The notes below the pieces were generated by a model. That model searched no databases. It worked only from the letters and a program-made list of their open reading frames with translations, and was not told where the DNA came from. A stretch of 64,000 nt of DNA, from contig NZ_CP100448.1 in assembly GCF_024227715.1 (NCBI RefSeq), forward strand, positions 806,001 to 870,000. The letters are read 5' to 3'. Of this stretch, positions 23,057-47,300 are shown piece by piece (within the stretch, counting starts at the first letter, position 1; every line of letters starts with the position of its first letter). The position numbers and the translations under genes are program-made. The stretch comes from Halomarina litorea (GTDB lineage: Archaea; Halobacteriota; Halobacteria; Halobacteriales; Haloarculaceae).

Positions 23057-23159
23057 GGCCGTCGATTCGACAGCAACCCGACAGAAGGTTCGGCTTTACT
23101 ATGCGAGTCCCTTTTTCGGTGGTCGGTCGATTGATGGCCCTGCTGTGCGTACCCACCCC

Positions 23160-24110
23160 GTGAATCGAGCGTGGGTCGGGCGCAACGGCGAGCGACTGGC
23201 CGTCTGGGCCGTCGCCGCCCTCGTCGTCGTCGCGGGCGTCGGCGCACTCCTCGTCCAGCCCTATCCCATCGACGAGGGGCGCGTCGAGTCCGTCGCCGCC
23301 GACGCCGCCCTCTCGGTCGAACGAACCGACTCGGGACTGGTCGTCCGGCCCGCGGACGGCGAGGTGCGCGAGGCGCTGGCGTTCCTCCCCGGTGCGCTCG
23401 TCCCACCCGAGGCGTACCTCCCGCTGGCCGGTCGTCTCGCGACCGAGACGGGACTCGCGGTGTACCTCCTCGACGTCCCGCTGAACCTCGCCGTCCTCGA
23501 CGTAACCGCGGCGGACGCCGTCGTCGGTGTCGATTCGAGTGTCGAGCGGTGGTACGTCGGCGGGCACTCGCTGGGTGGGGCGATGGCCTGCCGGTACGCC
23601 GACAGAGAGGCACTCCGTGCCTCAGGCAGCCGGACGCAGTCCGGCGACGACGGGAACGCCGACCGACTCGCGGGCGTCGTCCTCCTCGGGGCGTACTGCG
23701 ACGTGGACCTGCGCGACACCGACCTCGCGGTCCTGACCGTCGTCGGGACGCGCGACGGCGTCGTGAATCGCAAGCGACTGGCGGCCTCACGGGGCCTCGT
23801 GCCACCGGACGCGCGGTTCGTCGCCGTCGCGGGGACGAACCACACGCAGGTCGGCGTCTACCGGGGGCAGGCCGACACGCCCGCCACCGTGACCGGCGAA
23901 ACGGCGCGGGCGCGCGTCGTCGACGCAATCGCCGCGTGGCTGGCGGGTCAGTCGGTCGAGAGCGTCGGGAGGCCCCAGTCGCGGGCCACCGCGAGCACCC
24001 GCACGACGAACACGAGTACCGCGGTGCCGAGCAGTGCCCCACCGGAGGGGACGCCGAGTCGAGTCGCCGCCCAGAATCCCACCCCGCCGAGGACGGCCGG
24101 CGTGGCGTAG
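23160..24110 (+). CDS. Membrane-anchored alpha/beta hydrolase carrying a palindromic insert
   Basis: This product of about 316 residues has an N-terminal membrane helix (about 11-32), a hydrolase core with the nucleophile elbow GGHSLGGAMA, an Asp/His region near VVGTRDGVVN and GTNHTQVG. Right after the elbow helix lies a 16-residue in-frame repeat peptide (DREALRASGSRTQS), shared with the DUF302 protein at 33511. The start is a GTG chosen because it directly precedes the membrane helix; no good in-frame ATG lies closer. The natural domain seems to end near 23950, and the last 53 residues are low-complexity Thr/Pro-rich sequence that runs antisense across the neighbouring TRIC gene. A lost stop codon is possible. 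Confidence 0.72.
   Translation: MNRAWVGRNGERLAVWAVAALVVVAGVGALLVQPYPIDEGRVESVAADAALSVERTDSGLVVRPADGEVREALAFLPGALVPPEAYLPLAGRLATETGLAVYLLDVPLNLAVLDVTAADAVVGVDSSVERWYVGGHSLGGAMACRYADREALRASGSRTQSGDDGNADRLAGVVLLGAYCDVDLRDTDLAVLTVVGTRDGVVNRKRLAASRGLVPPDARFVAVAGTNHTQVGVYRGQADTPATVTGETARARVVDAIAAWLAGQSVESVGRPQSRATASTRTTNTSTAVPSSAPPEGTPSRVAAQNPTPPRTAGVA
23601..23648 (+). repeat. In-frame palindromic element, copy 1
   Basis: This 48-base, 16-codon element contains two perfect 7-bp hairpins: gaggcac/gtgcctc with loop tcc (23607-23623) and gccggac/gtccggc with loop gca (23629-23645). It is in frame with the hydrolase and encodes DREALRASGSRTQSGD. Copy 2 is at 33682. The copies differ by paired changes that keep both stems. 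Confidence 0.8.
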
Positions 24111-24562
24111 AAGTCCTCGCGCAGGACGACGGGCACGCGCGTCAGGAGGAGGTCCGCGAGGCTCCCGCCCCCGACGCCGGTGAGCGTCGCCAGCACGACG
24201 ACGCCGAACGGCGAGAGGCCCGCCTCGACGCCGACCTGCGCGCCCGTCGCGGCGAAGGCGGCGAGTCCCACTGCGTCCGACCCGACGAGCGCGGGGTGGT
24301 CGCGCACGTCGCCCCGACGCACCACGAACGCGACGGCGAGAGCGACGCCGAGAAACGCCACGCTCACGTCGGTGGTGGACTGGAGCGACCCCGGCACCCG
24401 CCCGACGAGGACGTCCCGGAGGGTGCCGCCCCCGAGGGCGGTGACGACGCCGAGGACGCCCACGCCGAACAGGTCGAGGTCGGCCTCCGCGCCCTTCAGC
24501 GCCCCCGCCGCGGCGAACGCGAGGAGGCCGAGGGCGTTCATCAGGTCGAAGGCGCTCACCAT
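23948..24562 (-). CDS. TRIC/UPF0126 (YadS/YicG) family membrane channel
   Basis: This 204-residue protein has seven hydrophobic helices in the UPF0126 inverted repeat: LGLLAFAAAGALKG...GVVTALGGGTLRDVLVGRVPG in the first half and GLAAFAATGAQVG...LTGVGGGSLADLLLTRVPVVL in the second. The two GGG-x-x-R/A-D loops are diagnostic. Relatives are trimeric cation channels (TRIC fold); transport of glycine has also been proposed in bacteria. It overlaps the tail of the convergent hydrolase frame by 163 bases and is followed by the SAM hydrolase gene on the same strand. Confidence 0.88.
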   Translation of the reverse strand: MVSAFDLMNALGLLAFAAAGALKGAEADLDLFGVGVLGVVTALGGGTLRDVLVGRVPGSLQSTTDVSVAFLGVALAVAFVVRRGDVRDHPALVGSDAVGLAAFAATGAQVGVEAGLSPFGVVVLATLTGVGGGSLADLLLTRVPVVLREDFYATPAVLGGVGFWAATRLGVPSGGALLGTAVLVFVVRVLAVARDWGLPTLSTD

Positions 24563-24568
24563 CCCGAC

Positions 24569-25318
24569 CTACCAGGACAGTTCGACGCGCTCCCCCACCC
24601 CGAGGCCGAACGCCTCGTCGCCCCGCCCCCGGTTGACGGCGAGTTCGACGTTGCCGTGGCTGGCGACGGTGACGAGTGCCTCGCCGGGGTCGCGGTGGGC
24701 GTAGGATGGGACGACGGGATACGATTCGTCGTTCACGACGACCCGGTCGCGGCCGTCGAGGACCGTCCCGGGGACGTTCGTGACCACGTTGCCGAAGTCG
24801 TCGACGACGAGGACCTCGCCGGTCGCGCCGTCCTCCCCCATTTCGGGTTCCGGGAGGTGCAGGTCCACGAAGTCGTCGGTCGGGCTGGCGCGGTCGAGGT
24901 CCTCGATTCGGTCGGCGTCGTGGACGGCCGCGGCGGCGGGAGCGAACACGTCCCGGCCGTGGAACGTCGAACTGGCGGGGTCGTCGGCGTGCCACTCGAA
25001 GACCGTACACTCGCCGCCGTCCGCGAGTTCGCGGGCGACCGGGAGGAGGAGGCCGTTGTCGGGGCCGACGAGGACGTGGTCGCCCGCCCGGACGACGAGG
25101 GCGGCGCGGTCGGTGCCGACGCCGGGGTCGACGACGGCGCAGTGGACCGCCGGCGGGAAGTACGGGAGGACCTCGCGAAGCCAGAAGGCTCCGGCACGGA
25201 CGTCCTGTCGGGGCAGGTCGTGGGCAACGTCCACGATGCGGGCGCCGGTCCGCGAGCAGACCACGCCGCGCATCGCGGCGGGGTACGGCGACCCGAAGTC
25301 GCTCGCGAGCGTGATCAT
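24569..25318 (-). CDS. SAM hydroxide adenosyltransferase (S-adenosylmethionine hydrolase, DUF62 family)
   Basis: This 249-residue protein begins MITLASDFGSPYPAAMRGV and carries VDPGVGTDRAALVV, LVGPDNGLL and VDDFGNVVTNV, the fingerprint of the DUF62 fold. Characterised archaeal members hydrolyse SAM to adenosine and methionine using an activated hydroxide. The start overlaps the stop of the NMN adenylyltransferase gene by four bases (ATGA), indicating translational coupling in a nadM-DUF62 operon. Confidence 0.9.
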   Translation of the reverse strand: MITLASDFGSPYPAAMRGVVCSRTGARIVDVAHDLPRQDVRAGAFWLREVLPYFPPAVHCAVVDPGVGTDRAALVVRAGDHVLVGPDNGLLLPVARELADGGECTVFEWHADDPASSTFHGRDVFAPAAAAVHDADRIEDLDRASPTDDFVDLHLPEPEMGEDGATGEVLVVDDFGNVVTNVPGTVLDGRDRVVVNDESYPVVPSYAHRDPGEALVTVASHGNVELAVNRGRGDEAFGLGVGERVELSW

Positions 25319-25854
25319 GCGGGGGTGTCGTTGTGTTCGTCAGTCGGCCCGTCGGTCTGGCCCACCTGTCGGAGGCGACCGATGCCGTCTATCTCGCGGA
25401 TGACGCCCGCGACGGCCTCGGGGACGAGGCTCTCCCAGTCGCCGTCGGTGCGGATGCGCTCTCTGACCTCTGTGCCCTCCAGTTCCTCCCGGCGGAACAT
25501 GGGCGAGGAGCGCACCTCGACGCCCGCCTCCTCGAACAGCCGTATCACGAGGGGGTTGTTCGAGTACGCCACCTCGAAGTTGGGGGACATGCTCTGGACG
25601 TGGCTCACCCAGACGGCGTTGCGGTCGAGGTCCTCGATGGGCACCGCGTAGGTGATGATGTCGAGGTCCTTGACGGCCTTCGTTATCATCATGATGCGCT
25701 CGCCGGCGGTGAACGGGTCGTGGACGGTGTGCGACTGGTCCGCGCTCCCGATGCCGAGGACGAGTTCGTCGACGTCGTCGGCGATTCGCTCGACCATCGC
25801 GTGGTGACCCGCGTGGTACGGCTGGAACCGCCCGATGTAGAACCCCCGCGTCAT
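25315..25854 (-). CDS. Nicotinamide-nucleotide adenylyltransferase (archaeal NadM type)
   Basis: This 179-residue enzyme makes NAD from NMN and ATP. It begins MTRGFYIGRFQPYHAGHHAMVERI, with the nucleotidyltransferase GRFQPxHxGH motif, and has the second motif MFRREELEGTEVRERI, matching the archaeal ISGTxIR position. Length and order fit archaeal NadM. The ATG at 25854 was chosen over one five codons upstream because the fold begins there and a TATA-like cttattaaac lies 25 bases before it. Confidence 0.93.
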   Translation of the reverse strand: MTRGFYIGRFQPYHAGHHAMVERIADDVDELVLGIGSADQSHTVHDPFTAGERIMMITKAVKDLDIITYAVPIEDLDRNAVWVSHVQSMSPNFEVAYSNNPLVIRLFEEAGVEVRSSPMFRREELEGTEVRERIRTDGDWESLVPEAVAGVIREIDGIGRLRQVGQTDGPTDEHNDTPA

Positions 25855-25874
25855 ACGCCAACCCTCCACGGGAC

Positions 25875-25884
25875 GTTTAATAAG
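25875..25884 (-). promoter_or_regulatory. TATA-like box for the NMN adenylyltransferase operon
   Basis: Read on the minus strand the sequence is cttattaaac, centred about 25 bases before the start at 25854. Confidence 0.6.
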
Positions 25885-25932
25885 CCCAACGGGTCGTCGT
25901 GGCGGAGCCAGTAACAGAACGGAAGCGGTGCT

Positions 25933-25944
25933 GTCGTGCGGTTT
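25933..25944 (+). repeat. Intergenic motif GTCGTGCGGTTT, copy 3
   Basis: This copy shares 14 bases with copy 2 but lacks the left half of the hairpin. It is 34 bases upstream of the lonB TATA-like box, in the divergent promoter region. Confidence 0.45.
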
Positions 25945-25978
25945 CGGTGGTGTGATACACCGGCGCGAGGGGAGAAAG

Positions 25979-25983
25979 TATAT
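25979..25983 (+). promoter_or_regulatory. TATA-like box for lonB
   Basis: The sequence gagaaagtatatc has a BRE-like purine run and a TATAT core about 43 bases before ATG 26024, implying a short leader of roughly 15 bases. Confidence 0.55.
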
Positions 25984-26023
25984 CAGTTGACGGGCCGTCC
26001 GTTAGAGTGACAGCAACGGTTCT

Positions 26024-28042
26024 ATGAGCAATAACAACGCAGACGAGGTTCCATCGGGAGACGGGGAAGTCGAACTCCCCGACGACCGGCGGGATCAGTC
26101 CGAGTCCGACCTCGGGCGGGACGTCGCCACCGACATGGAAGTCGACGAGGAGGCGACGGACGAGCTGCTCGGCGGACTTCAGATCGAGACGACCGCAGAC
26201 ATCGAGGTGCCAGAGCGCCTCGTGGACCAGGTCATCGGGCAGGACCACGCCCGCGACATCATCCTCAAGGCCGCGAAACAGCGCCGACACGTGATGATGA
26301 TCGGCTCCCCGGGGACCGGGAAGTCGATGCTCGCGAAGGCGATGAGCCAGCTCCTCCCGCGCGAGGAACTGCAGGACGTCCTCGTGTACCACAACCCGGA
26401 CGACGGGAACGAGCCCAAGGTCCGGACGGTGCCTGCGGGGAAGGGTGAACAGATCGTCGAGGCCCACAAGGAGGAGGCACGCAAGCGCAACCAGATGCGC
26501 TCGTTCCTCATGTGGATCATCATCGCCATCGTCATCGGCTACGCGCTCCTCATCGAGGGCGCGGTCCTCCTCGGTATCCTCGCGGCCGGTGTCATCTACC
26601 TCGCGTTCCGCTACTCCTCGCGTGGCTCCGACGCGATGATTCCCAACCTGCTGGTCAACAACGCGGACCACCAGACCGCCCCCTTCGAGGACGCGACGGG
26701 CGCCCACGCGGGTGCGCTGCTGGGCGACGTCCGCCACGACCCGTTCCAGTCGGGTGGGATGGAGACGCCGAGCCACGACCGCGTCGAGGCCGGCGGCATC
26801 CACAAGGCGAACAAGGGCGTGCTGTTCGTCGACGAGATCAACACGCTCGACATCCGCAGCCAGCAGAAGCTGATGACCGCCATCCAGGAGGGCGCGTTCG
26901 CCATCACCGGGCAGAGCGAACGCTCCTCGGGTGCCATGGTCCAGACCGAACCCGTGCCGTGTGACTTCGTCATGGTCGCCGCCGGGAACCTGGACGCCAT
27001 GGAGAACATGCACCCCGCGCTCCGTTCCCGCATCAAGGGGTACGGGTACGAGGTGTACATGGACGACACCATCGAGGACACCGCGGAGATGCGCCGCAAG
27101 TACGCGCGCTTCGTGGCGCAGGAAGTCGAGAAGGACGGCCGCCTGCCGCACTTCTCGAAGGCCGCCGTCGAGGAGGTCATCCTCGAGGCCCAGCGCCGGT
27201 CGGGCCGCAAGGGGCACCTCACGCTCGAACTGCGCAACCTCGGTGGCCTCGTCCGCGTCGCGGGCGACATCGCTCGCGCCGAGAACGCCGAGCAGACCAC
27301 TCGCGACCACGTGCTACAGGCCAAGCGCCGCAGCCGGTCCATCGAGCAGCAACTCGCCGACGACTACATCGAGCGCCGCAAGGACTACGACATGACCGTC
27401 GCCGAGGGCGACGTGGTCGGTCGGGTCAACGGCCTCGCGGTCATGGGCGAGGACTCCGGCATCGTGATGCCCGTCATGGCCGAGGTGGCCCCCTCGCAGG
27501 GCCCCGGTCAGGTCATCGCCACCGGGAAACTGCAGGACATCGCACAGGAGGCCGTCCAGAACGTCTCGGCCATCATCAAGAAGTTCTCGGACGAGGATAT
27601 CTCCGAGCAGGACATCCACATCCAGTACGTCCAGTCGTACGAGGGCGTACAGGGTGACTCCGCCAGCGTGACGATGGCCACGGCGGTCATCAGCGCACTG
27701 GAGAACATCCCCATCGACCAGAGCATCGCCATGACGGGCTCGCTCTCGGTCCGCGGGGACGTCCTGCCCGTCGGGGGCGTGACCCACAAGATCGAGGCCG
27801 CCGCGAAGGCCGGCCTCGATACGGTCATCATCCCCGCCGCGAACGAACAGGACGTGATGATCGAGGACGAGTACAAGGACCAGATCGAGATCATCCCGGT
27901 CCACCACATCAGCGAGGTCCTCGAGGTCGCCCTCGCGGGCGAACCCGAGAAGGACTCGCTGGTCGACCGCCTCAAGAACATCACCGGGCAGGCCCTCGAA
28001 CGCAGCGGGTCGAAGGGTCGTGGCAGTCCCAGCCCGCAGTAG
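26024..28042 (+). CDS. lonB: Membrane-bound ATP-dependent protease LonB
   Basis: This 672-residue archaeal Lon is an AAA+ protease. It has an acidic N-terminus (1-60), Walker A GSPGTGKS at 94-101, and two membrane helices inserted in the ATPase domain (about 160-200, [35 protein letters not shown]), which anchor it to the membrane. Walker B is VLFVDEIN (Asp270-Glu271), and the protease domain has catalytic Ser546 (GDSAS) and Lys589 (GGVTHK). Lon-B is essential in Haloferax volcanii and controls carotenoid synthesis by degrading phytoene synthase. A CPBP protease gene follows with no intervening base. Confidence 0.97.
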
Positions 28043-28849
28043 ATGCCCGCCTGGGCGGCGTTCGTCGGCCTGACGACCGTCGTCCTCGTCTTCTTACTGG
28101 CGCTCGCACGCGCCTCGCAGTCGCTCGTCACCGAGCGCGAGCCGTCCGACCAGACGGTACACGACGGCGGACACGCACCCGCCTGGGGACACGACCTCGC
28201 CGACGCGCTCCGGCGGGACGACGCTCCCGGTCCCCGAGACGCCGCCGACGAGTTCACGACCGGCCTCCTGCTCGCCAACGTCGCGCTCTCGCAGGGCTTT
28301 CTCGGGTTCGTCCTCGTCGCCGGCGCGTGGTACTTCCGGATTCCACTGGCAGCGCTCGGCGTCGACCTCGGGGACCCGCTCTCGACGGGTCTGCCGGCGC
28401 TCGGCGTCGGCGTCGCCCTCGGTCTCGTCCTCTACGTGGCGAACGCCGTGGGTGCGGCGAGTGCCTCGGCGTTCGGGTTCGAGGCCGACGAGTCGCTCAG
28501 GGAGATGCTCACACCGGACGACGCCCGCGGGTGGACGCTCCTGCTGGGTGGCGTCCTCCCGGTCATCGCCGGGTTCGAGGAACTGCTCTTCCGGGCGGCC
28601 GTCGTCGGTGCGACGGGCGCGGGCTTCGGCCTCCCCCTCTGGGGGCTGGCCCTCGTCTCCTCGCTCGCGTTCGCGGCCGGTCACGGCGCGCAGGGTCCGG
28701 CGGGAATCGTCGTGACGGGCCTGCTGGGGTTCGTCCTCGCGGCGGCGTTCGTCCTCACGAACAGCCTGCTGGCGGTCTTCGTCGCCCACTACCTCGTCAA
28801 CGCACTGGAGTTCGTCGTCAGCGGTCACTTCGGCCTCGAACTGGGCTGA
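28043..28849 (+). CDS. CPBP family intramembrane metalloprotease
   Basis: This 268-residue polytopic membrane protein has the CPBP (CAAX protease, Abi) motif 1 FEELLFRAAVVG (EExxxR), a second-motif region SSLAFAAGHGAQGP with a conserved His, and a third HYLVNALEF with His/Asn. The ATG directly follows the lonB stop codon, so translation is probably coupled. Substrates of archaeal CPBP proteases are unknown; pairing with a membrane Lon suggests a shared role in membrane protein turnover. Confidence 0.88.
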   Translation: MPAWAAFVGLTTVVLVFLLALARASQSLVTEREPSDQTVHDGGHAPAWGHDLADALRRDDAPGPRDAADEFTTGLLLANVALSQGFLGFVLVAGAWYFRIPLAALGVDLGDPLSTGLPALGVGVALGLVLYVANAVGAASASAFGFEADESLREMLTPDDARGWTLLLGGVLPVIAGFEELLFRAAVVGATGAGFGLPLWGLALVSSLAFAAGHGAQGPAGIVVTGLLGFVLAAAFVLTNSLLAVFVAHYLVNALEFVVSGHFGLELG

Positions 28850-28852
28850 GTC

Positions 28853-29380
28853 CTACCCGTCGAACTCCTCGTCGACGTAGTCGGCGTCGATGGACGCCGC
28901 GATCTCGGTGAGTCGCTGGGCGGAGTCGGTGTACTGGAGGATCTTCTGCATGTCCCCGTCGAGGTCGAACTTCGCGCTCATCAGACCGTCGATGATGCCC
29001 ACCTCGCGGTCGAGCAGGGCCTTCCACTGCTCCATCGTCGCCGAGAGGAGGAAGCCGTGGTCCACGGCGTCGGGGTCCTCGACGAGGCCCGCCCCCAGAC
29101 AGTCGCCGTCTTCCAGTCTGAGGAGCGCGTACCCGGTGGTGTCGCCGCCCGCGCCGCCGCGGACGTACTGGTCGAGTTGCTCGCGGAGCGACGCCGGGAG
29201 CGCGTCCATGTCGATGTCGTCGATGGGCATCTTGGTCATCTCGAAGACGATGTCGCCGTCGAAGTCGACGCCCCACCCCTCCGCCTGTCGTGCGTACTGC
29301 TCGTCGGCGCGGATGGCGCGCTCGTACTCGTCGAACCAGTCGCCGCTCGGGAAGTACAGCGGTTCGGTCTGTGTCTCCAT
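28853..29380 (-). CDS. SCP2 sterol-binding-like domain protein
   Basis: This 175-residue acidic protein matches the SCP2 lipid-binding fold (about 60-170): GYALLRLEDGDCLGAGLVED...GFLLSATMEQWKALLDREVGIIDGLMSAKFDLDGDMQKILQYTDSAQRLTEIAASI. The pattern sequence W..LL......II..L...K....GD..K.L......L is typical. It probably binds a lipid or acyl-type ligand. ATG 29380 was chosen over one five codons upstream by similarity. It is convergent with the CPBP gene three bases away. Confidence 0.75.
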   Translation of the reverse strand: METQTEPLYFPSGDWFDEYERAIRADEQYARQAEGWGVDFDGDIVFEMTKMPIDDIDMDALPASLREQLDQYVRGGAGGDTTGYALLRLEDGDCLGAGLVEDPDAVDHGFLLSATMEQWKALLDREVGIIDGLMSAKFDLDGDMQKILQYTDSAQRLTEIAASIDADYVDEEFDG

Positions 29381-29530
29381 GGTGTTCGTCCACACGGCTC
29401 TCGGACGACCGGACGGGTGTGCCTTCCCCCACTCATGAGGGGCCGTTTATGCGGGCGTCGGGTCCCGCCCGAGGACGACACCCGGGATCCCGCGTCGTCG
29501 TGCGTGCGTCTGCCATCCGTCTGACACAGA

Positions 29531-29538
29531 GTTTAGTA
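29531..29538 (+). promoter_or_regulatory. TATA-like box for the DUF7139-like gene
   Basis: The stretch gtttagta is centred about 26 bases before ATG 29561. Confidence 0.5.
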
Positions 29539-29560
29539 CGGTGAGTGGCAAGGCCCCTCC

Positions 29561-30394
29561 ATGACCAGCCTCACGGAGGTGTACGAGGGGGGAAGCGGTG
29601 GGGACGACCTCCGACGGCTGTACCTCGGCGTCGGCCTCTTTCTCGTCGGCGTCGTCTTCGCGCTGGCCGGTATCGTCTTCGCGACGACGGGTCTCGGGGC
29701 CGGGTTCGGCATGTCGTGGTGGCAACAGCGGGAGGTGGCCGGCGTCCTCGCGGGTATCGGCATCCCGGCCGTGTTCCTCGGCGTCCTCACCGTCCTCCCG
29801 GCGAGTCGGTTCGTCCGCGGCGCCGCCGTCGCGGGCGCGGCGGTGGCGACCCTCGGCGTCCTCCTCTTCTACCTCGTCTACCCGAACAGCTGGGTCGGCG
29901 ACCCGGCGAACTACTCCCTGCCGGTCCTCGGCGTCTACTTCCTCGGTGCCATCGCCACGTTCTGGTGTCTGTTCACCGGCGTCGCGAACTTCAAGACGCG
30001 CAACGACCCCGGCGGCACCGTCAAGCTCGAGATCACGCAGGGCGGCGAGACGCGCGTCGTCGAAGTCGAGGGCGACGGACTCTCCCGGCGACTCGGCGGC
30101 ATCGGCCTCCTCGGCGCGACGCCCGACGGCGAGATTCAGACGCAGACGGCCGGTTCGACCGCCCGGAGCGACGGCGGCACGACGGCGCAGTCCGCGAACG
30201 ACACCGCCCGCCCCGCCTCGGAGGGCGCGGAACTGCTCGGCGAGGAGGAGTCGAGCGACGCCACGGACGCCTACTGCGGCAACTGCGCGCACTTCAGCTA
30301 CGTCCGGACCGGCGACGGCCTCAAACCCTACTGCGGCTACCACGAGGGACTCATGGACGACATGGACCCGTGCCCGGAGTGGGAGAAGAACTGA
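29561..30394 (+). CDS. Haloarchaeal membrane protein with a C-terminal cysteine knuckle (DUF7139-like)
   Basis: This 277-residue protein has four membrane helices (about 18-42, 60-80, 86-106, 120-142), a cytoplasmic linker rich in Thr/Ser/Ala, and a C-terminal zinc-binding-like knuckle: YCGNCAHFSYVRTGDGLKPYCGYHEGLMDDMDPCPEW (pattern C-x2-C-x13-C-x2-H-C). I recall the family as DUF7139, conserved in Halobacteria with no known function. The combination suggests a membrane protein that senses or binds something through a metal centre; that is inference. Confidence 0.75.
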   Translation: MTSLTEVYEGGSGGDDLRRLYLGVGLFLVGVVFALAGIVFATTGLGAGFGMSWWQQREVAGVLAGIGIPAVFLGVLTVLPASRFVRGAAVAGAAVATLGVLLFYLVYPNSWVGDPANYSLPVLGVYFLGAIATFWCLFTGVANFKTRNDPGGTVKLEITQGGETRVVEVEGDGLSRRLGGIGLLGATPDGEIQTQTAGSTARSDGGTTAQSANDTARPASEGAELLGEEESSDATDAYCGNCAHFSYVRTGDGLKPYCGYHEGLMDDMDPCPEWEKN

Positions 30395-30403
30395 CCGACT
30401 GAC

Positions 30404-30862
30404 CTAGAGGCCCGCCAGCGTCTCCCCGACGCGCTCCCAGTGACTCCCCTTCCAGAAACACTGTCCGCAGTGGCGACACCGCCAGACCGTCGCTTCGTCC
30501 GTGTCGGGGGCGTACTCGGGTGTCGACTCGCCGTCCCCGAGACGAACCAGCGGGCCGTTGCAGGCCCCGCAGTAGGTCGGCGTGTCGTCCAGTTCGAGGG
30601 GGACGCCCGCCGCGTGGAGTTCGCGCAACTGCTCGTCCACGTCGCGCGATTCGAGCAGTATCGCGTCCTCGACTCGACCAGCCAGTTGGACGTCCCGCGT
30701 GACGAGCGTGCGACCCTCCGCGCGTGCGCGCCGCGCGAGGGCCGCGTCCTCCGTCGACGGGTCGCCCGGTGCCGCGTCGTCCAGCGCGTAGACGGTGTCG
30801 TGGCCGCACATCCGGAGGTAGCTCCGCAGGCCGCCACACATCACGTCGAGGAGGAGGCGCAC
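30404..30862 (-). CDS. Mut7-C family RNase domain protein
   Basis: This 152-residue protein has a PIN-like Mut7-C domain with RLLLDVMCGGLRSYLRMCGHDTVYALDD and LARRARAEGRTLVTRDVQLAGRV (acidic active-site residues), followed by a zinc ribbon with CGACNGPL and CRHCGQCFWKGSHW. The order and length match archaeal Mut7-C proteins, predicted ribonucleases. It starts four bases before the end of the polX gene region on the same strand, so it is probably the last gene of the DUF5788-polX-Mut7C operon. Confidence 0.9.
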   Translation of the reverse strand: MRLLLDVMCGGLRSYLRMCGHDTVYALDDAAPGDPSTEDAALARRARAEGRTLVTRDVQLAGRVEDAILLESRDVDEQLRELHAAGVPLELDDTPTYCGACNGPLVRLGDGESTPEYAPDTDEATVWRCRHCGQCFWKGSHWERVGETLAGL

Positions 30863-30866
30863 CGAC

Positions 30867-32615
30867 CTACAGCCCCAGGAACGACCGGACCTCGCCCGCG
30901 TCCCACGCGTTGAGCACGTCGTCTCGCTCTGCCCACCCGCGCCGGGCGGTGTGGACGCCGTAGCGCACGAGGTCGAAACTCGACGGGGTGTGGGCGTCGG
31001 TGTTCACGGCGATGGTCGCTCCTCGCTCGATGGCGGCCTGCACCGCGCCGCCGCGCAGGTCCAGTCGGTTCGGGTTGGCGTTCACTTCGAGGGCAGTGCC
31101 CGCGTCGGCGGCGTGGGCGGCGAGTCGGCCGAAATCGACGTCGAGGCCCGGGCGCTGGTTCAACTGGCGGCCCGTCGGATGGCCGAGGATATCGACCTGC
31201 GGGTGTTCGACGGCCCGAATCAGGCGGTCGGTGCCGTCGCCGTCGAGAGCGGCGTGCGGCGAGGCGACCACGCAGTCAAGCCGTTCGAGCAGGTCGTCAC
31301 TCACCGATATCTCTCCCTCGGCGGAGACGTTCGCCTCCACGCCCGCGAACACCGCGAGGTCGCTGTCGTCGCCGACCTCACGTATCTCGACCAGTTGCTC
31401 CTCCAGTTCCTCGTCCGAGAGGCCGACGCCGCCGACCATCCCCGGGCCGGTGGCGTGGTCCGTGACAGCGACGTAGTCGTAGCCGCGTTCCTCGGCCCCG
31501 GCGACCATCTCCGCGACGGTGTTCCGACCGTCCGACCACTCGGTGTGACAGTGCAGGTCGCCGCGGATGTCGCTCTCTTCGAGAAGGTCCGGGAGCTCCC
31601 CCCGGTCGGCGGCGTCCAGTTCCCCGCGGTCCTCGCGGAGTTCGGGGGGAATCCACGGCAGGTCGAGGGCGGCGTACATCTCCGCCTCCGTCTCGCCGGC
31701 CACCTTCTCGCCGACGCGCTGGTCCGAATCGGGGTCCTCGACGTCCGAGATGTCGAAGACGCCGTACTCGTTGACCTTCAGGTCGCGGGCGATGGCCCGG
31801 TCGCGAAAGCGGATGTTGTGCGCCTTGCTGCCCGTGAAGTACTGCAGGGCCGCGCCGAACTCCTCGGGACTCGTCACCCGCAGGTCGACGCGGATGCCCG
31901 CAGCGCGGACGCTGGCCTTGCTGGTGCCCGCTTCGATGACGGTGTCTGCCTCGGGCCAGTCGGTGAACGCCTCCACGACCGCCTCGGGGGAGTCGCTCGC
32001 GGCGAGGACGTCCACGTCGCCGATGGTGGCCCGCCAGCGCCGGAGCGACCCCGCCACCTCCCAGCGATTCGTCGCGTCCACGCCCTCGAAGTACGCGAGG
32101 ACGTCGTCGGCCAGCGGCCGGGCGTCGGCGAGCAACTGACGTTCCTGTGTCTGGCGGGCGAAGTCGAGGTTGTCGAGGATGTTCTGCTCGGTCTTCGCGC
32201 CGAACCCCTCCACCCCCTGAATCTCGCCGGCCCTCGCTGCGGTTTCGAGGTCGTCGAGGGTCCGCACGCCGAGCGCGCGGTACAGTTTCCCGACGGTCTT
32301 CGGCCCGACGCCCTCGACGCTCGTGAGAGCGGCCATCTCGACGGGCAACTCCTCACGGAGCTCTTCGAGTTCCTCGATTTCGCCCGTCTCGACGTACTCG
32401 ACCACCTTCGCGGCGATGGCCTCGCCCACGCGGTCGATTCCCTCGACGGCCTCCTGTCCGCCCTCGCGGGCGAGGTCCGCCACGGGTTCGGGGTACTCGC
32501 GGATGTTCTCGGCGGCCCGGCGGTACGCCCGGTGTTTGTACTCGACGCCCTGCGCTTCGAGTCGGTCGGCGAACTCCTCGAAGAGGGCGGCGAGTTCGTC
32601 GTTGCGGACGGGCAT
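30867..32615 (-). CDS. polX: Family X DNA polymerase with PHP 3'-5' exonuclease (PolX)
   Basis: This 582-residue enzyme joins a polymerase X domain (about 1-330), with helix-hairpin-helix motifs (VEGVGPKTVGKLYRALGV, VEGFGAKTEQNILDNL) and the catalytic pair in GDVDVL (Asp200, Asp202), to a C-terminal PHP phosphoesterase (about 350-575) with the metal site LHCHTEWSDGRNTV (His355, His357) and further His/Asp motifs including NTDAHTP. It fills gaps and processes 3' ends in base-excision repair. The start abuts the stop of the DUF5788 gene. Confidence 0.96.
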   Translation of the reverse strand: MPVRNDELAALFEEFADRLEAQGVEYKHRAYRRAAENIREYPEPVADLAREGGQEAVEGIDRVGEAIAAKVVEYVETGEIEELEELREELPVEMAALTSVEGVGPKTVGKLYRALGVRTLDDLETAARAGEIQGVEGFGAKTEQNILDNLDFARQTQERQLLADARPLADDVLAYFEGVDATNRWEVAGSLRRWRATIGDVDVLAASDSPEAVVEAFTDWPEADTVIEAGTSKASVRAAGIRVDLRVTSPEEFGAALQYFTGSKAHNIRFRDRAIARDLKVNEYGVFDISDVEDPDSDQRVGEKVAGETEAEMYAALDLPWIPPELREDRGELDAADRGELPDLLEESDIRGDLHCHTEWSDGRNTVAEMVAGAEERGYDYVAVTDHATGPGMVGGVGLSDEELEEQLVEIREVGDDSDLAVFAGVEANVSAEGEISVSDDLLERLDCVVASPHAALDGDGTDRLIRAVEHPQVDILGHPTGRQLNQRPGLDVDFGRLAAHAADAGTALEVNANPNRLDLRGGAVQAAIERGATIAVNTDAHTPSSFDLVRYGVHTARRGWAERDDVLNAWDAGEVRSFLGL

Positions 32616-33050
32616 CTAGCGGCGCCTCCCGCTCGTGGATTCCCGGCCGAGGACCTGCTTCAGGAACCCCATCCAGCGCTTCTGGTCGAGCGCCTCCTTG
32701 CGTTTCGCCTCGTCTTCGAGGTTCGCCGGGCCGAGGCTCTCCAGTGCGGAGAGCGCCCGGTCGATGCCGATGATGGACTCCGCGAGGTCCTCGCCCTCCT
32801 CGAAGGTGACCTCGTCGTCCTCGATGCGCTGGCGGCGCTGGAGTTTCTCCCGCCGGAGGTTCTTCTTCGCCTGATCGACCCGGTCGCGTTCGCCGGGCGG
32901 GACGGTGTCCCGGCGTTTGATCTCGAAGACGAACTCGCTGAGGTCCACCTGCTCGCCCTGTACCTCGATTCGCTCGGGGATGCGCGCACCGACCGTCGCG
33001 CCCTCGCGGTCGATGCGTTCGAGCAACACCTTCCGCTCGAACTCCTTCAT
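32616..33050 (-). CDS. DUF5788 family protein
   Basis: This 144-residue basic/acidic mixed protein has MKEFERKVLLERIDREGATVGARIPERIEVQGEQVDLSEFVFEIKRRDTVPPGERDRVDQAKKNLRREKLQRRQRIED and a C-terminal coiled region (about 75-135). It is a conserved haloarchaeal family (DUF5788) of unknown function. It directly precedes polX (adjacent stop and start), so a DNA repair link is plausible from context only. The long upstream extension of its frame has no features and is rejected. Confidence 0.8.
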   Translation of the reverse strand: MKEFERKVLLERIDREGATVGARIPERIEVQGEQVDLSEFVFEIKRRDTVPPGERDRVDQAKKNLRREKLQRRQRIEDDEVTFEEGEDLAESIIGIDRALSALESLGPANLEDEAKRKEALDQKRWMGFLKQVLGRESTSGRRR

Positions 33051-33122
33051 GCGTGGTCTTGGGGGGCCGAGCACAAAAGCCCAAACGAAAGGCGTAACCC
33101 ACACGCTGTCGCAGTAGCGCGT

Positions 33123-33425
33123 ATGGCCGAGGACGAACAAGAGGAGGAGGAATCCGGACCCGTCGTCGAACTCGGCGACCGGGAGCACGTCGACGGGGCA
33201 CCGCTCGCCCGACCGCTCGCCCGACTCCACTACGGCATCGAGAGGAGCGAGGTCGTCCGCCGCGTCGGCGACGTCGAGATTCGGACCCCCGACGGGCCGC
33301 GGACCATCGAGGACGCCCTCTCCGAGGTGGACCACACCTACTTCCCCACCAAGGAGGACCTCCACGGTGCACTCCGAGAGGTCGTCGGACACGGCCCGGT
33401 CCCGACGAGCGACGACGAGGAGTAA
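33123..33425 (+). CDS. DUF5789 family protein
   Basis: This 100-residue protein has an acidic N-terminus and then VVELGDREHVDGAPLARPLARLHYGIERSEVVRRVGDVEIRTPDGPRTIEDALSEVDHTYFPTKEDLHGALREVVG, matching the short haloarchaeal DUF5789 family. It looks like a small alpha/beta protein. Its role is unknown. It is divergent from the DUF5788 gene, with 72 bases between the starts. Confidence 0.8.
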   Translation: MAEDEQEEEESGPVVELGDREHVDGAPLARPLARLHYGIERSEVVRRVGDVEIRTPDGPRTIEDALSEVDHTYFPTKEDLHGALREVVGHGPVPTSDDEE

Positions 33426-33510
33426 CCCCCCTCCTTCGGGGCTTCGGTGGCCCGGACGACGCACGGGCGGCACACGCTTTTGTACCGTTCGCCCAATACA
33501 GTGCGATACG

Positions 33511-33999
33511 ATGCTACCGATAGACCCGTCCGAACTCGACGCGGAGGACATCGGCGAGAAGGAGGCGACGCTCCACATGGACCACGAGGAGGCGGTCGAA
33601 CACGTCCGCGAGGTGTTCACGGACGCGGGCTTCGGCGTTCCCGTCGAGTTCTCGCCCTCGGAGTTGCTCAACGAGAAGGTCGACAGAGAGGCGCTTCGCG
33701 CCTCAGGCAGTCGGACAGAGTCCGACGACGCGGATCGGGACCCCTACTACGTGCTGGGGGCGTGCAACCCGGCGATGGCCGACCGGGCGCTCGACATCTC
33801 GATGAAGATGGGCGGCCTGTTCCCCTGCAACGTCGTCGTCTGGGAGGAGGAACCGGGCGTCCAGCACGTCTACCACCTCTCCATCATGCGCGCCGGGCGA
33901 CTGCTCGGTATCGCGCCCGACGACGAGGAGATGGCGGACCTCATCGCGGACACGGGCGAACTCGTCGAGGAGGCCTTCGGGAACCTCGACAGCGAGTAG
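33511..33999 (+). CDS. DUF302 family protein carrying a palindromic insert
   Basis: This 162-residue protein shows the DUF302 fold (VREVFTDAGFGVPVEFSPSELLNEKV...DPYYVLGACNPAMADRALDISMKMGGLFPCNVVVWEE). DUF302 proteins bind small ligands, and some relate to oxidative or metal stress. Between KVD and DRDPYYV it carries the 16-residue peptide DREALRASGSRTESDD encoded by the palindromic repeat also found in the hydrolase gene at 23160. The normal domain would run straight across this point, so the insert probably forms a surface loop. ATG 33511 is placed by similarity. Confidence 0.87.
   Translation: MLPIDPSELDAEDIGEKEATLHMDHEEAVEHVREVFTDAGFGVPVEFSPSELLNEKVDREALRASGSRTESDDADRDPYYVLGACNPAMADRALDISMKMGGLFPCNVVVWEEEPGVQHVYHLSIMRAGRLLGIAPDDEEMADLIADTGELVEEAFGNLDSE
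33682..33729 (+). repeat. In-frame palindromic element, copy 2
   Basis: This 48-base element has hairpins gaggcgc/gcgcctc with loop ttc (33688-33704) and gtcggac/gtccgac with loop aga (33710-33726). It encodes DREALRASGSRTESDD. Relative to copy 1, an A-T pair becomes G-C in the first stem and a C-G pair becomes T-A in the second; the remaining differences are in loops. Confidence 0.8.
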
Positions 34000-46082: not shown

Positions 46083-46470
46083 GGCGCAGGTGTCGCCCCT
46101 CGCGGCGCTCGTCGCCCTCCTCGCCGTCTGCGCCGGAGTGAGCCTCTACGCGGGCACCCTCGACACCTCGCTTCACTCGCTCACCGGGCCCGACCCGACG
46201 GTCCGGACCGTCGCCGACCGGACGCTCGACACGCTCGCGCCGACGGGTGTGACCACGCCCGCCCGCCTCGCGAACCGCTCCCTCACGGCCGGGGCCGGAG
46301 CCGTCCCCGAGGGCTACCGGGTGAACGTAACGCTCGTCGCGGGCGGGGAGCGCTGGCAGCGGGGGCCCGCGGCGCCGCCCGGCGCGGGCCGGACCGTCCG
46401 CGCCCTCGGCGTCCGCCTCGACCCCGGGCGGGTCGTCCCGGGGCGACTCAGGGTGGTGGTCTGGTCGTGA
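46060..46470 (+). CDS. Prepilin-like secreted protein (DUF7285-like)
   Basis: This 136-residue protein starts MSRSSARRAQVSPLAALVALLAVCAGVSLYAG: a short basic leader, then a cleavage-like RRAQVSP context and a 20-residue hydrophobic stretch, which resembles the haloarchaeal prepilin signal (R-G/A-x-SP). The remainder is a small extracytoplasmic domain with N-glycosylation sequons. It is therefore a candidate pilin or minor pilin of the ATPase/TadC machine. GTGA overlap with the next gene shows tight coupling. Confidence 0.72.
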   Translation: MSRSSARRAQVSPLAALVALLAVCAGVSLYAGTLDTSLHSLTGPDPTVRTVADRTLDTLAPTGVTTPARLANRSLTAGAGAVPEGYRVNVTLVAGGERWQRGPAAPPGAGRTVRALGVRLDPGRVVPGRLRVVVWS

Positions 46471-47300
46471 GGGCCGTCAGCACGCTCCCCGACGTCGTCC
46501 TCTTCCTCCTGCTCGTGAGCGGGGCGGTCGGGACGCTCGCCCTCGTCCCCACCCCTGCACCGACCGACGGGACCGCTGAGGGGACCGCCCGGACGCTCTC
46601 TGCGACCACCGTCGCGGTCGAGGACGACGCCGGCCGGACCGTCCACGGGACGCCGACGGGCCTGCTCGCCGCCGCCGCGGTCGACGGGGCACGGCTCGAC
46701 GGCTGGCGACTCCTCCACGACGACCCCGTCGCGAGCGGACACGCCGACGCGCTCCTCACCCCCGCAGTATCGGACGGCAGGGTCCGCGTCGAAGCCGTCT
46801 GGCGGCCGTACCCGAACGCCTCGCTCGTCGGCCGGGTCGCGGTCGGCCCGCGGCCCCCGCACGCGGCGACGGTGGACGCGGCAGTCGTCACGGTCCCCAC
46901 GGGGCTCCCCGGCGAGGCGGCGGCCCGCCGCGCGGCCCGTCGCTCGGGATTCGACGGCGTCGCCGGCCTCCTCGCCCGGTCGGTCGTCTCACGCGCCTTC
47001 CCGCCGGGGGGGACCCGGGCCGCGCTGTACGACTCCCGCCTGCGGGCGGATGCCGCCGTACGCTATCGACACACCGCACGCGCGGTCGGGTCCGACGCCG
47101 ACCTCTCCGTCCCGCTCGGAGCCGCGAACGCGACGGCCGCCAACCGGCTGGTGAGCGAGGCGCTGGCCGGCCGAATCGAGGCCGACCTCCGCGATCGGTT
47201 CGACACGCCCGAGGCGGCCGCGAGCGCCGTCGCGGCGGACCGGGTCCGCGTGACCGTGCGGACGTGGCACGGCGGGTCGAGAGCGGGGTGGTCCCGGTGA
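46467..47300 (+). CDS. Pilus operon secreted/anchored protein (DUF7284-like)
   Basis: This 277-residue protein begins with a GTG overlapping the previous stop. It has an N-terminal hydrophobic anchor (about 8-28, DVVLFLLLVSGAVGTLALVP), an outer domain rich in Ala/Asp/Arg with N-x-S/T sequons, and a C-terminal helical region. No enzymatic motif is visible. I recall it as DUF7284. Its stop overlaps the following GTG start. It is probably a structural component of the surface machine. Confidence 0.7.
   Translation: MRAVSTLPDVVLFLLLVSGAVGTLALVPTPAPTDGTAEGTARTLSATTVAVEDDAGRTVHGTPTGLLAAAAVDGARLDGWRLLHDDPVASGHADALLTPAVSDGRVRVEAVWRPYPNASLVGRVAVGPRPPHAATVDAAVVTVPTGLPGEAAARRAARRSGFDGVAGLLARSVVSRAFPPGGTRAALYDSRLRADAAVRYRHTARAVGSDADLSVPLGAANATAANRLVSEALAGRIEADLRDRFDTPEAAASAVAADRVRVTVRTWHGGSRAGWSR

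Follow-up and report, generated by a model that had tools for sequence, protein, structure and literature searches.

What are two closely similar 48-base palindromic sequences doing, in frame, inside two unrelated genes of the haloarchaeon Halomarina litorea? The question is raised by a stretch of 64,000 nucleotides (assembly GCF_024227715.1, contig NZ_CP100448.1, forward-strand positions 806,001 to 870,000), referred to here as the window, in which copy A lies in an alpha/beta hydrolase gene and copy B in the gene of a DUF302 protein. An earlier note on this DNA had proposed a mobile palindromic element, copied as DNA and translated with its hosts. Our comparative analysis makes it likely that both copies belong to a haloarchaeal family of non-autonomous mobile DNA elements of very small size, selfish in nature and tolerated as a translated loop. 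The features under discussion are the following.

23151..24050, + strand: host open reading frame (ORF) portion of copy A, an alpha/beta hydrolase (Abhydrolase_5), which served as query
23601..23603, + strand: GAC triplet 5' of copy A; the empty homologues have GAC (L245), GAT (L247), GAG (L246) and GCG (L249)
23604..23648, + strand: copy A, a 45-nt element AGA-hairpin 1-AGGCA-hairpin 2-GAC (sequence, alignment, fold)
23607..23623, + strand: hairpin 1 of copy A, 7 bp, loop TCC (sequence, fold)
23629..23645, + strand: hairpin 2 of copy A, 7 bp, loop GCA (sequence, fold)
33511..33999, + strand: DUF302 host gene of copy B (Pfam)
33682..33684, + strand: GAC triplet 5' of copy B; the codon is GAC in 52 of 73 empty orthologues
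33685..33729, + strand: copy B, a 45-nt element AGA-hairpin 1-AGGCA-hairpin 2-GAC and a clean 15-codon insertion (sequence, orthologue alignment)
33688..33704, + strand: hairpin 1 of copy B, 7 bp, loop TTC (sequence, fold)
33710..33726, + strand: hairpin 2 of copy B, 7 bp, loop AGA (sequence, fold)

Copy A reads directly as GAC (23601-23603) and AGA, a first hairpin with arms GAGGCAC and GTGCCTC around TCC (23607-23623), the spacer AGGCA, a second hairpin with arms GCCGGAC and GTCCGGC around GCA (23629-23645), and GACGAC (23646-23651). Copy B consists of GAC (33682-33684) and AGA, arms GAGGCGC and GCGCCTC around TTC (33688-33704), AGGCA, arms GTCGGAC and GTCCGAC around AGA (33710-33726), and GAC (33727-33729). 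The earlier note had described two perfect 7-bp hairpins with 3-base loops in each copy (23601-23648 and 33682-33729), a common reading frame and paired changes in the stems, and all of this is present in the sequence: A-T becomes G-C in stem 1, C-G becomes T-A in stem 2, and the identical frame encodes DREALRASGSRTQSGDD in copy A and DREALRASGSRTESDDA in copy B. A 23-base degenerate pattern built from hairpin 1 of the two copies matches, with up to three mismatches, only these two places in the 64 kb (0.00 expected; 0 of 100 shuffles). Folded alone, the 45-mers form exactly two hairpins each, with z-scores for copies A and B of -4.6 and -4.7 as DNA and -3.9 and -4.4 as RNA, values that none of 200 shuffles equalled in any case.

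The host of copy A is assigned to Abhydrolase_5 (Pfam, E 4.8e-35) and that of copy B to DUF302 (Pfam, E 5e-15), where the profile match begins at residue 74, immediately past the insert. AlphaFold models say little about the inserts. In the hydrolase, the second half (residues 141-150) has a mean predicted local distance difference test score (pLDDT) of 60, while the first half is modelled as an extended helix within a block of 90; in the DUF302 protein, the insert (residues 58-73) scores 58-69, and values elsewhere are equally low (residues 91-100: 50).

Clean insertion against empty homologues was found for ten host genes of the window's genome. About 15 extra codons occur at the DUF302 site in 5 of 78 relatives, which comprise haloarchaea and a few Thermoplasmatota records, and the others are without them. 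The hydrolase insert is filled in none of 15 homologues, four of them from the same genus; its net gain by protein alignment is 16 codons, with an additional GAC at 23649-23651. For the other eight hosts, same-genus homologues are empty in LeuC (7 of 7), CrtB (7 of 7), TrpA (5 of 7), S9 peptidase (5 of 5), MerA (4 of 4), DUF309 (6 of 7), copper ATPase (6 of 6, two from one genome) and Hef (7 of 7); filled same-genus alleles were seen for TrpA in two of seven genomes and for DUF309 in one of seven. The net gain is 45 nt in six of these hosts, 51 nt in Hef, whose insert has a longer stem in hairpin 2, and 39 nt in CrtB, where the host sequence differs too. Host names come from family searches, "copper" being the better of several ATPase models and CrtB a squalene/phytoene synthase by Pfam. 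The proposal that the insertion was copied as DNA into unrelated hosts is supported by these empty homologues together with the further family copies described next.

When 51 homologue loci were scanned for copies elsewhere, one was found in MerA of genome G003 (L308:628-678, - strand), where DGEGRSPSGSRAAPADS stands in the same frame at a position different from that in the window genome's MerA. Weak matches were returned for L264 and L304, the latter a single hairpin GCGGAACGGAGTTCCGC with DSAERSSATESSGE at a second gene position in the S9 peptidase of G007 (L304:484-525, - strand, E 5e-4).

A DNA search of the window's own genome returned five places below E 1e-5, counting both window copies. 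The covariance-model search that the earlier note had called for gave 18 distinct places at E<=1e-4, 16 of them in frame within genes; further in-frame hosts include argininosuccinate lyase (ArgH), topoisomerase VI B, MutS, LeuRS, BirA and a PALP enzyme (by reading, a putative threonine synthase). A second covariance model matched at E<=1e-4 in 32 of 40 genomes, the own genome included. In an even phylum draw with stricter filters, matches at E<=1e-6 occurred in 24 of 196 genomes, all in the window's order; none appeared in nine other genomes of that order, nor in the remaining 163, of which 11 are listed as the same phylum and 152 were placed outside the order by table sorting. From 140 model matches in 87 loci (27 returned, 60 fetched from listed places), 90 were kept; the rest were 44 matches to the other strand of places already counted and six additional places that scored lower. 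Together with the 18 own places, the 90 make up the 108 copies analysed below. Rfam gave no match at E<=0.1 in 12 loci, including both window copies (L001, L002).

On plasmids, six records matched; in five an annotated gene lies beneath the match (ppsA, aconitate hydratase, alkaline phosphatase family, hemolysin family and CobN) and one record is unannotated. In the two records inspected, the match lies within the coding sequence, on the strand of the gene. The plasmid of Halobacterium sp. DL1 (CP007061.1, L368) has its copy in the annotated aconitate hydratase, and an IS605 transposase gene is annotated some 430 bases further downstream. Among viral contigs, one exact pattern match (L360) was judged a chance occurrence, hairpin 1 being missing.

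Several observations concern variants of the element and its arrangement. The PolX-like gene of the window (30867-32615, - strand; named by reading) reads NEYGVFDISDVEDP without an insert, and L173, from a same-genus genome (G002), and L319, from G062, carry different element variants at NEYGVF(D), a further shared target. In LeuRS (L142, L146; G000:C1:300053-300142), one insert has at least three consecutive hairpins (GREARSASERASSAERGSADSRAASPRDDG). Three loci that are histidine kinase-like by reading (L193, L322, L339) hold tandem in-frame copies (NSVEHGSTSSRTESGDSVEHG...), and their host motif resembles the element start. Two intergenic arrays of the own genome (L148 and L149; G000:C1:921100-921156 and 46419-46475) consist of two consecutive double-hairpin units with spacers TGCTA and then GATGCY, longer stems and a similar architecture, and may be donors or cousins. 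Multi-copy intergenic repeats in G061 and G063, the genomes of the Halorubrum loci L036 and L081, have hairpins (spacers GACAG and TGCAA-like) and, after them, GAGGCTGGGGAGGCGTGAGG or close variants (L327, L330, L335, L341-L345); four of these eight loci (L327, L330, L335, L341) were compared with Rfam, with no match.

The paired changes between copies A and B extend to the family. Across 14 aligned copies, the paired share of stem cells is 98.0%, compared with 80.5% in shuffles, none of which in 500 reached that level, and 34 cells changed on both sides, compared with 10.5 in shuffles. Among the 138 copies read, 99 are distinct and have exactly 51 nt with the 7-bp, 3-base-loop geometry; in these, collected with models that reward pairing, 1368 of 1386 stem cells pair. 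They use 40 distinct left arms for hairpin 1 and 19 for hairpin 2. The first pair is G-C in 96 of 99 copies for stem 1 and in 83 of 99 for stem 2, and a minority of copies have longer stems. To judge from these alignments, structure is kept while sequence turns over.

Orientation and frame are biased as well. The codon-position signal is clear on either side of 61 copies, and 56 of these share one strand and frame, which agrees with the single frame noted for the window pair; the test covered 106 of the 108 copies, L179 and L227 being left out for their N characters. The five outside the rule are L203, L205, L218, and L142 and L143, whose model start is shifted and which are in frame by their ORFs. 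The length of 16 of the 108 copies is not divisible by three. Three of these (L130, L142 and L143) do keep the frame, their model ends being shifted; L134 is ambiguous, ten have no clear two-sided coding signal and two are not scorable. As a control, GAC triplets in a crude set of 53 window ORFs fall in that frame in 38% of cases (1427 of 3762) and in frame on the opposite strand in 32%, so GAC triplets alone do not explain the bias. In the used frame, the copies encode an acidic, polar peptide (net charge -1.9, hydropathy -1.30), and the opposite strand, read in frame, is hydrophobic (+0.33) with stops in 11 of 90 copies. Selection at the level of the peptide is the simplest reason for the strand and frame bias.

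The usual unit can be written AGN-hairpin 1-spacer-hairpin 2-GAC, with a 5-base spacer that is often NGGCA; it spans 45 bases and mostly follows a GAC triplet. After removal of 25 locus identifiers judged non-coding by eye, 89 distinct 51-nt coding copies remained, with GAC as the 5' triplet in 61, as the 3' triplet in 58 and as both in 47. At the DUF309 site, the 5' triplet is host sequence (GAC, AAC or AAT by lineage) and the 3' triplet is GAC, GGC or AAC; these triplets suggest an inserted unit AGN-hairpins-GRC of 45 bases, for which a 3-base duplication is possible and not needed. There, the 3' GAC or GGC belongs to the insert, and insertion after GAC without duplication fits equally. As to the flanking target duplications that the earlier note wished to see mapped, GAC stands on both sides in about half of the coding copies, while a fixed duplication is not shown, the DUF309 5' triplet being the host's own. 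A duplication longer than GAC was rejected as a rule: a repeat between left side and right flank scoring at least 9 occurs in only 7 of 108 copies (about 2.6 expected from shuffled pairings), namely L143 and L216 (BirA), L193, L238, L165, L207 (TrpA) and L242. The hosts TrpA and BirA themselves supply one arm of hairpin 1, and this host sequence recurs 3' of the insert. Regarding tetranucleotide context, GAC stands directly 3' of hairpin 2 in 58 of the 89 copies and a G three bases on in 78%; hairpin 2 is mostly followed by GACG, which on the other strand places CGTC ahead of it. In 17 of the 89, hairpin 1 has GTC or GTT on its 5' side.

Two host families were examined through gene trees. In DUF302, with insert columns removed, the six filled rows need six changes, and a single clade of them is rejected (approximately unbiased test, p-AU 5.9e-86). 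Among the five named species, the inserts agree at 41-45 of 45 bases (91-100%), in genes that are 73-88% identical. In DUF309, the eight recognisable hairpin copies need eight changes, seven of them forced by well-supported branches, and one clade of all 11 inserts is rejected (p-AU 8.4e-50). The DUF309 tree holds 50 genes from 224 gene-bearing genomes (the 30 best-scoring, seven with suspiciously long matches among the matches listed, and 13 neighbours), and its filled share is therefore not a frequency; 11 genes are filled, eight with recognisable hairpins, and L404 and L406 are empty at the site. As the trees read, arrival at the identical nucleotide is repeated in both families, with six changes in DUF302 and eight in DUF309.

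At the DUF309 site, L400 and L401 have a longer spacer between the hairpins, and at least two element types use the one site. Inserts without recognisable hairpins occupy the same position in L402, L403 and L405, as decayed copies or other insertions.

At the level of sequence, the comparisons show clean insertion in unrelated genes, repeated arrival, paired stem changes, and a strong bias of intragenic copies in strand and frame. The reading as a family of mobile elements combines these features with a mechanism. The element would move as folded single-stranded DNA, through an enzyme acting in trans, IS200/IS605-like or other, that would recognise the hairpins and a short target; selection would then remove copies that landed in another frame or orientation, or at a site that does not tolerate them. 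On this view, each coding copy would be selfish DNA that persists because its translation yields no more than a harmless polar, acidic loop. In its outline, the earlier proposal of a mobile palindromic in-frame element has stood up, through further copies, covariation, empty sites and a shared frame.

A number of points weigh against this account. Neither a transposition event nor within-species polymorphism was seen. A Y1 transposase was sought in the own genome and none was found; ten Y1 loci were searched without a strong hairpin pair nearby (best E 0.026); and across 40 genomes, mean copy numbers, which include some places counted on both strands, are 4.7 in the 19 genomes with Y1 and 6.2 in the 21 without (Mann-Whitney p 0.88). 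A past or foreign enzyme may have acted. The absence of stops in the used frame follows from how the 90-copy set was chosen, and the 98.7% pairing in the 99 copies is partly by construction. The window's DUF302 insert is just 38-40 of 45 bases identical to the other five, in genes 73-81% identical, so its arrival need not be equally recent. Copies at the same site are also more alike than copies at different sites: over a core of 39 nt, 34.1 bases agree within sites against 26.3 between, which plain transposition from random donors does not predict. Finally, codon -6 is TTG in three of six filled DUF302 genes against 6 of 73 empty ones (uncorrected p 0.018 among about 30 codons).

Of the alternatives, the one that survives best, although we regard it as doubtful, holds that the coding copies are direct derivatives of IS605/IS1341-type TnpB transposons, that is, palindrome-associated transposable elements (PATEs) or terminal-only remnants mobilised by TnpA. 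Six of the 108 copies have a TnpB match in their locus, a count from a single TnpB query on loci cut at 1-1.5 kb that may miss some. In five (L170, L208, L217, L223, L172), the hairpin pair is on the strand opposite to the match, 102-149 nt past its 3' end; in the sixth (L232), it lies 234 nt from the 5' side. The TnpB of L170 matches OrfB_IS605 plus Cas12f1-like_TNB. Spacer and flank letters are common to TnpB-linked and coding copies (AACAGAGAGG..CCTCAAGCAGTCGG..CGACGACGG), and the 52-bp terminal-only PATEs of Haloquadratum may themselves be mobile, according to the consulted part of PMC3119063. The TnpB-linked version, however, has about 20 further bases (TGACATCCTCCGCGCCGTG) that are missing from coding copies, and the boundaries differ. 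The seven TnpB loci of the own genome contain no full hairpin pair (best E 0.0023, one hairpin), and the Y1 results above, with none found at home and no correlation with copy number, speak against TnpA mobilisation as well. This link to TnpB genes and intergenic repeats adds to what the earlier note had read.

Slightly less probable, in our assessment, is the spread of insert alleles between species by very short homologous recombination (gene conversion) after rare original insertions. It would account for the likeness of same-site copies across families and for the TTG at codon -6. The best match of a copy lies at its own site for 18 of 31 copies, ties counted, and all six DUF302 inserts begin GACAGAGAG, as does none of the 25 further loci that were read in G059-G063 (in all, 30 loci from the 65 listed rows were read); the nearest start elsewhere is DGEARSASGSRTQSGDD in L318 of G061. 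In L036, the third codon, two past the border, is GAC as in most filled rows, while its six shown sisters have GGC or GGT. The border codons, on the other hand, are not enriched in filled genes (lowest p 0.13 for codons -5 to +1 in DUF302 and 0.053 for -10 to +9 in DUF309), and some of them track the host lineage: AAC occurs both in the filled L376 and in its empty relative L411 (another relative, L412, has GAC), L401 has AAT beside AAC in its sister L413, and L036 has GCG like its sisters. Flanks of filled rows are no more similar than chance, in a comparison of low power (permutations as high: 0.14 and 0.12 in DUF302, 0.83 and 0.41 in DUF309). Same-site likeness may arise from target preferences of variants, from the survival of only some variants at each site, or from short recombination tracts that carried some of the copies.

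A homing-like, hairpin-guided element, each variant of which would re-insert time after time at its own single codon per gene in different haloarchaea, with little or no flanking DNA, is an unlikely extension. One variant would be placed in DUF302 after NEKV-D and another in DUF309 after FE-D. If so, target choice would be written in the 45-base element, for example as base pairing between element and single-stranded target, and a diffusible enzyme or a single-stranded DNA or RNA intermediate would cross species borders. IS608, whose target is found by base pairing and can be re-programmed (PMC5934647, in the part consulted), offers a model by analogy for such guidance and no evidence for it.

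Old insertions inherited vertically, with many precise losses by slippage between flanking GAC triplets across the hairpins, appear improbable. Hairpins promote deletion between flanking repeats, and the GAC triplets present on both sides of 47 of the 89 coding copies would allow clean deletion. Against this stand the DUF302 inserts of the five named species, far more alike than the genes that carry them, and the DUF302 and DUF309 trees, which would need many losses. A last alternative does without any mobile element: acidic low-complexity loops would be palindromic owing to codon bias or to quasi-palindrome repair. Halophile proteins commonly have polar acidic loops, and quasi-palindrome correction could keep the arms complementary and may add to the covariation, but the fixed 7-3-7-5-7-3-7 geometry, the shared spacer and flank letters, the clean insertions of 45 nt, the nearly identical copies across unrelated genes and genomes and the lack of matches in the 163 phylum-draw genomes outside the order leave it hardly credible, and convergent loops are ruled out as a full explanation by clean empty sites and paired stem changes.

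Understood as a small mobile element, the sequence is widespread in a model group, the haloarchaea, and sits in core genes, which in the window's genome are LeuC, TrpA, ArgH, MutS, LeuRS, topoisomerase VI B and Hef; it also accounts for some unaligned loops of haloarchaeal proteins. With a natural series of filled and empty alleles of one gene, it becomes possible to test directly what a 15-residue insertion does, which enzyme mobilises the element and why insertion points are identical. Within the scope of our literature searches, in which most subscription papers were not covered, no in-frame palindromic element of archaea surfaced, in keeping with the earlier note's statement that it knew of no haloarchaeal description, and a text search for the element's peptide strings gave no match; on that basis, no protein-coding palindromic element of archaea would have been described before this one.

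Among known systems, close ones include the Rickettsia palindromic elements (RPE), reportedly described by Ogata et al. in 2000 and 2002. As in RPE, palindromic mobile DNA lies in frame in unrelated genes and encodes a conserved peptide, as far as partial sources describe them; here, one frame prevails among the clearly scored copies, the peptides are related and ten hosts have empty homologues. RPE are given as about 150 bp long in the part of PMC10969869 consulted, whereas the haloarchaeal unit has 45 nt, two consecutive hairpins and an archaeal setting; stem 1 turns over freely and insertion recurs at identical nucleotides, unlike in RPE as described there. The analogy drawn in the earlier note holds for in-frame insertion and for the shared frame and peptide and fails on length; compared by description, the element works like an RPE and is not classed as one.

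CGTC- and GTAG-tagged repetitive extragenic palindromes (REPs; Di Nocera et al. 2013) are short stem-loops with an unpaired tetranucleotide tag, often dimeric, some of which lie in frame inside genes, for example DNA repair genes; RPE-4 and RPE-6 belong to the CGTC type, for which no transposase is known (PMC3733652, seen in part). The CGTC on the other strand beside hairpin 2 in most copies recalls this type. In the same excerpted source, CGTC REPs have 8-9 bp stems, A-T first pairs and 4-5 base loops, in contrast to the mostly 7-bp, G-C-rich stems and 3-base loops found here; REPs are mostly intergenic, while the copies scored here are mostly coding; and "archaea" occurs solely in reference titles.

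Also close are the PATEs of Haloquadratum (Dyall-Smith et al. 2011) and the ends of IS605-type elements. PATEs are likewise haloarchaeal and transposase-free; their palindromes resemble IS605-type ends, and they have no target duplication; in-frame coding insertions are not described for them in the consulted part of PMC3119063. The coding copies also end elsewhere than the TnpB-linked ends and, unlike IS200/IS605-type TnpB elements (IS1341-type), contain neither a gene nor the terminal bases of the insertion sequence. The same kind of hairpin pair nevertheless follows the 3' end of a TnpB match in five loci; these TnpB-adjacent copies make kinship with IS605/PATE ends likely, and the element of Halomarina litorea is probably related to the ends of IS605-type elements.

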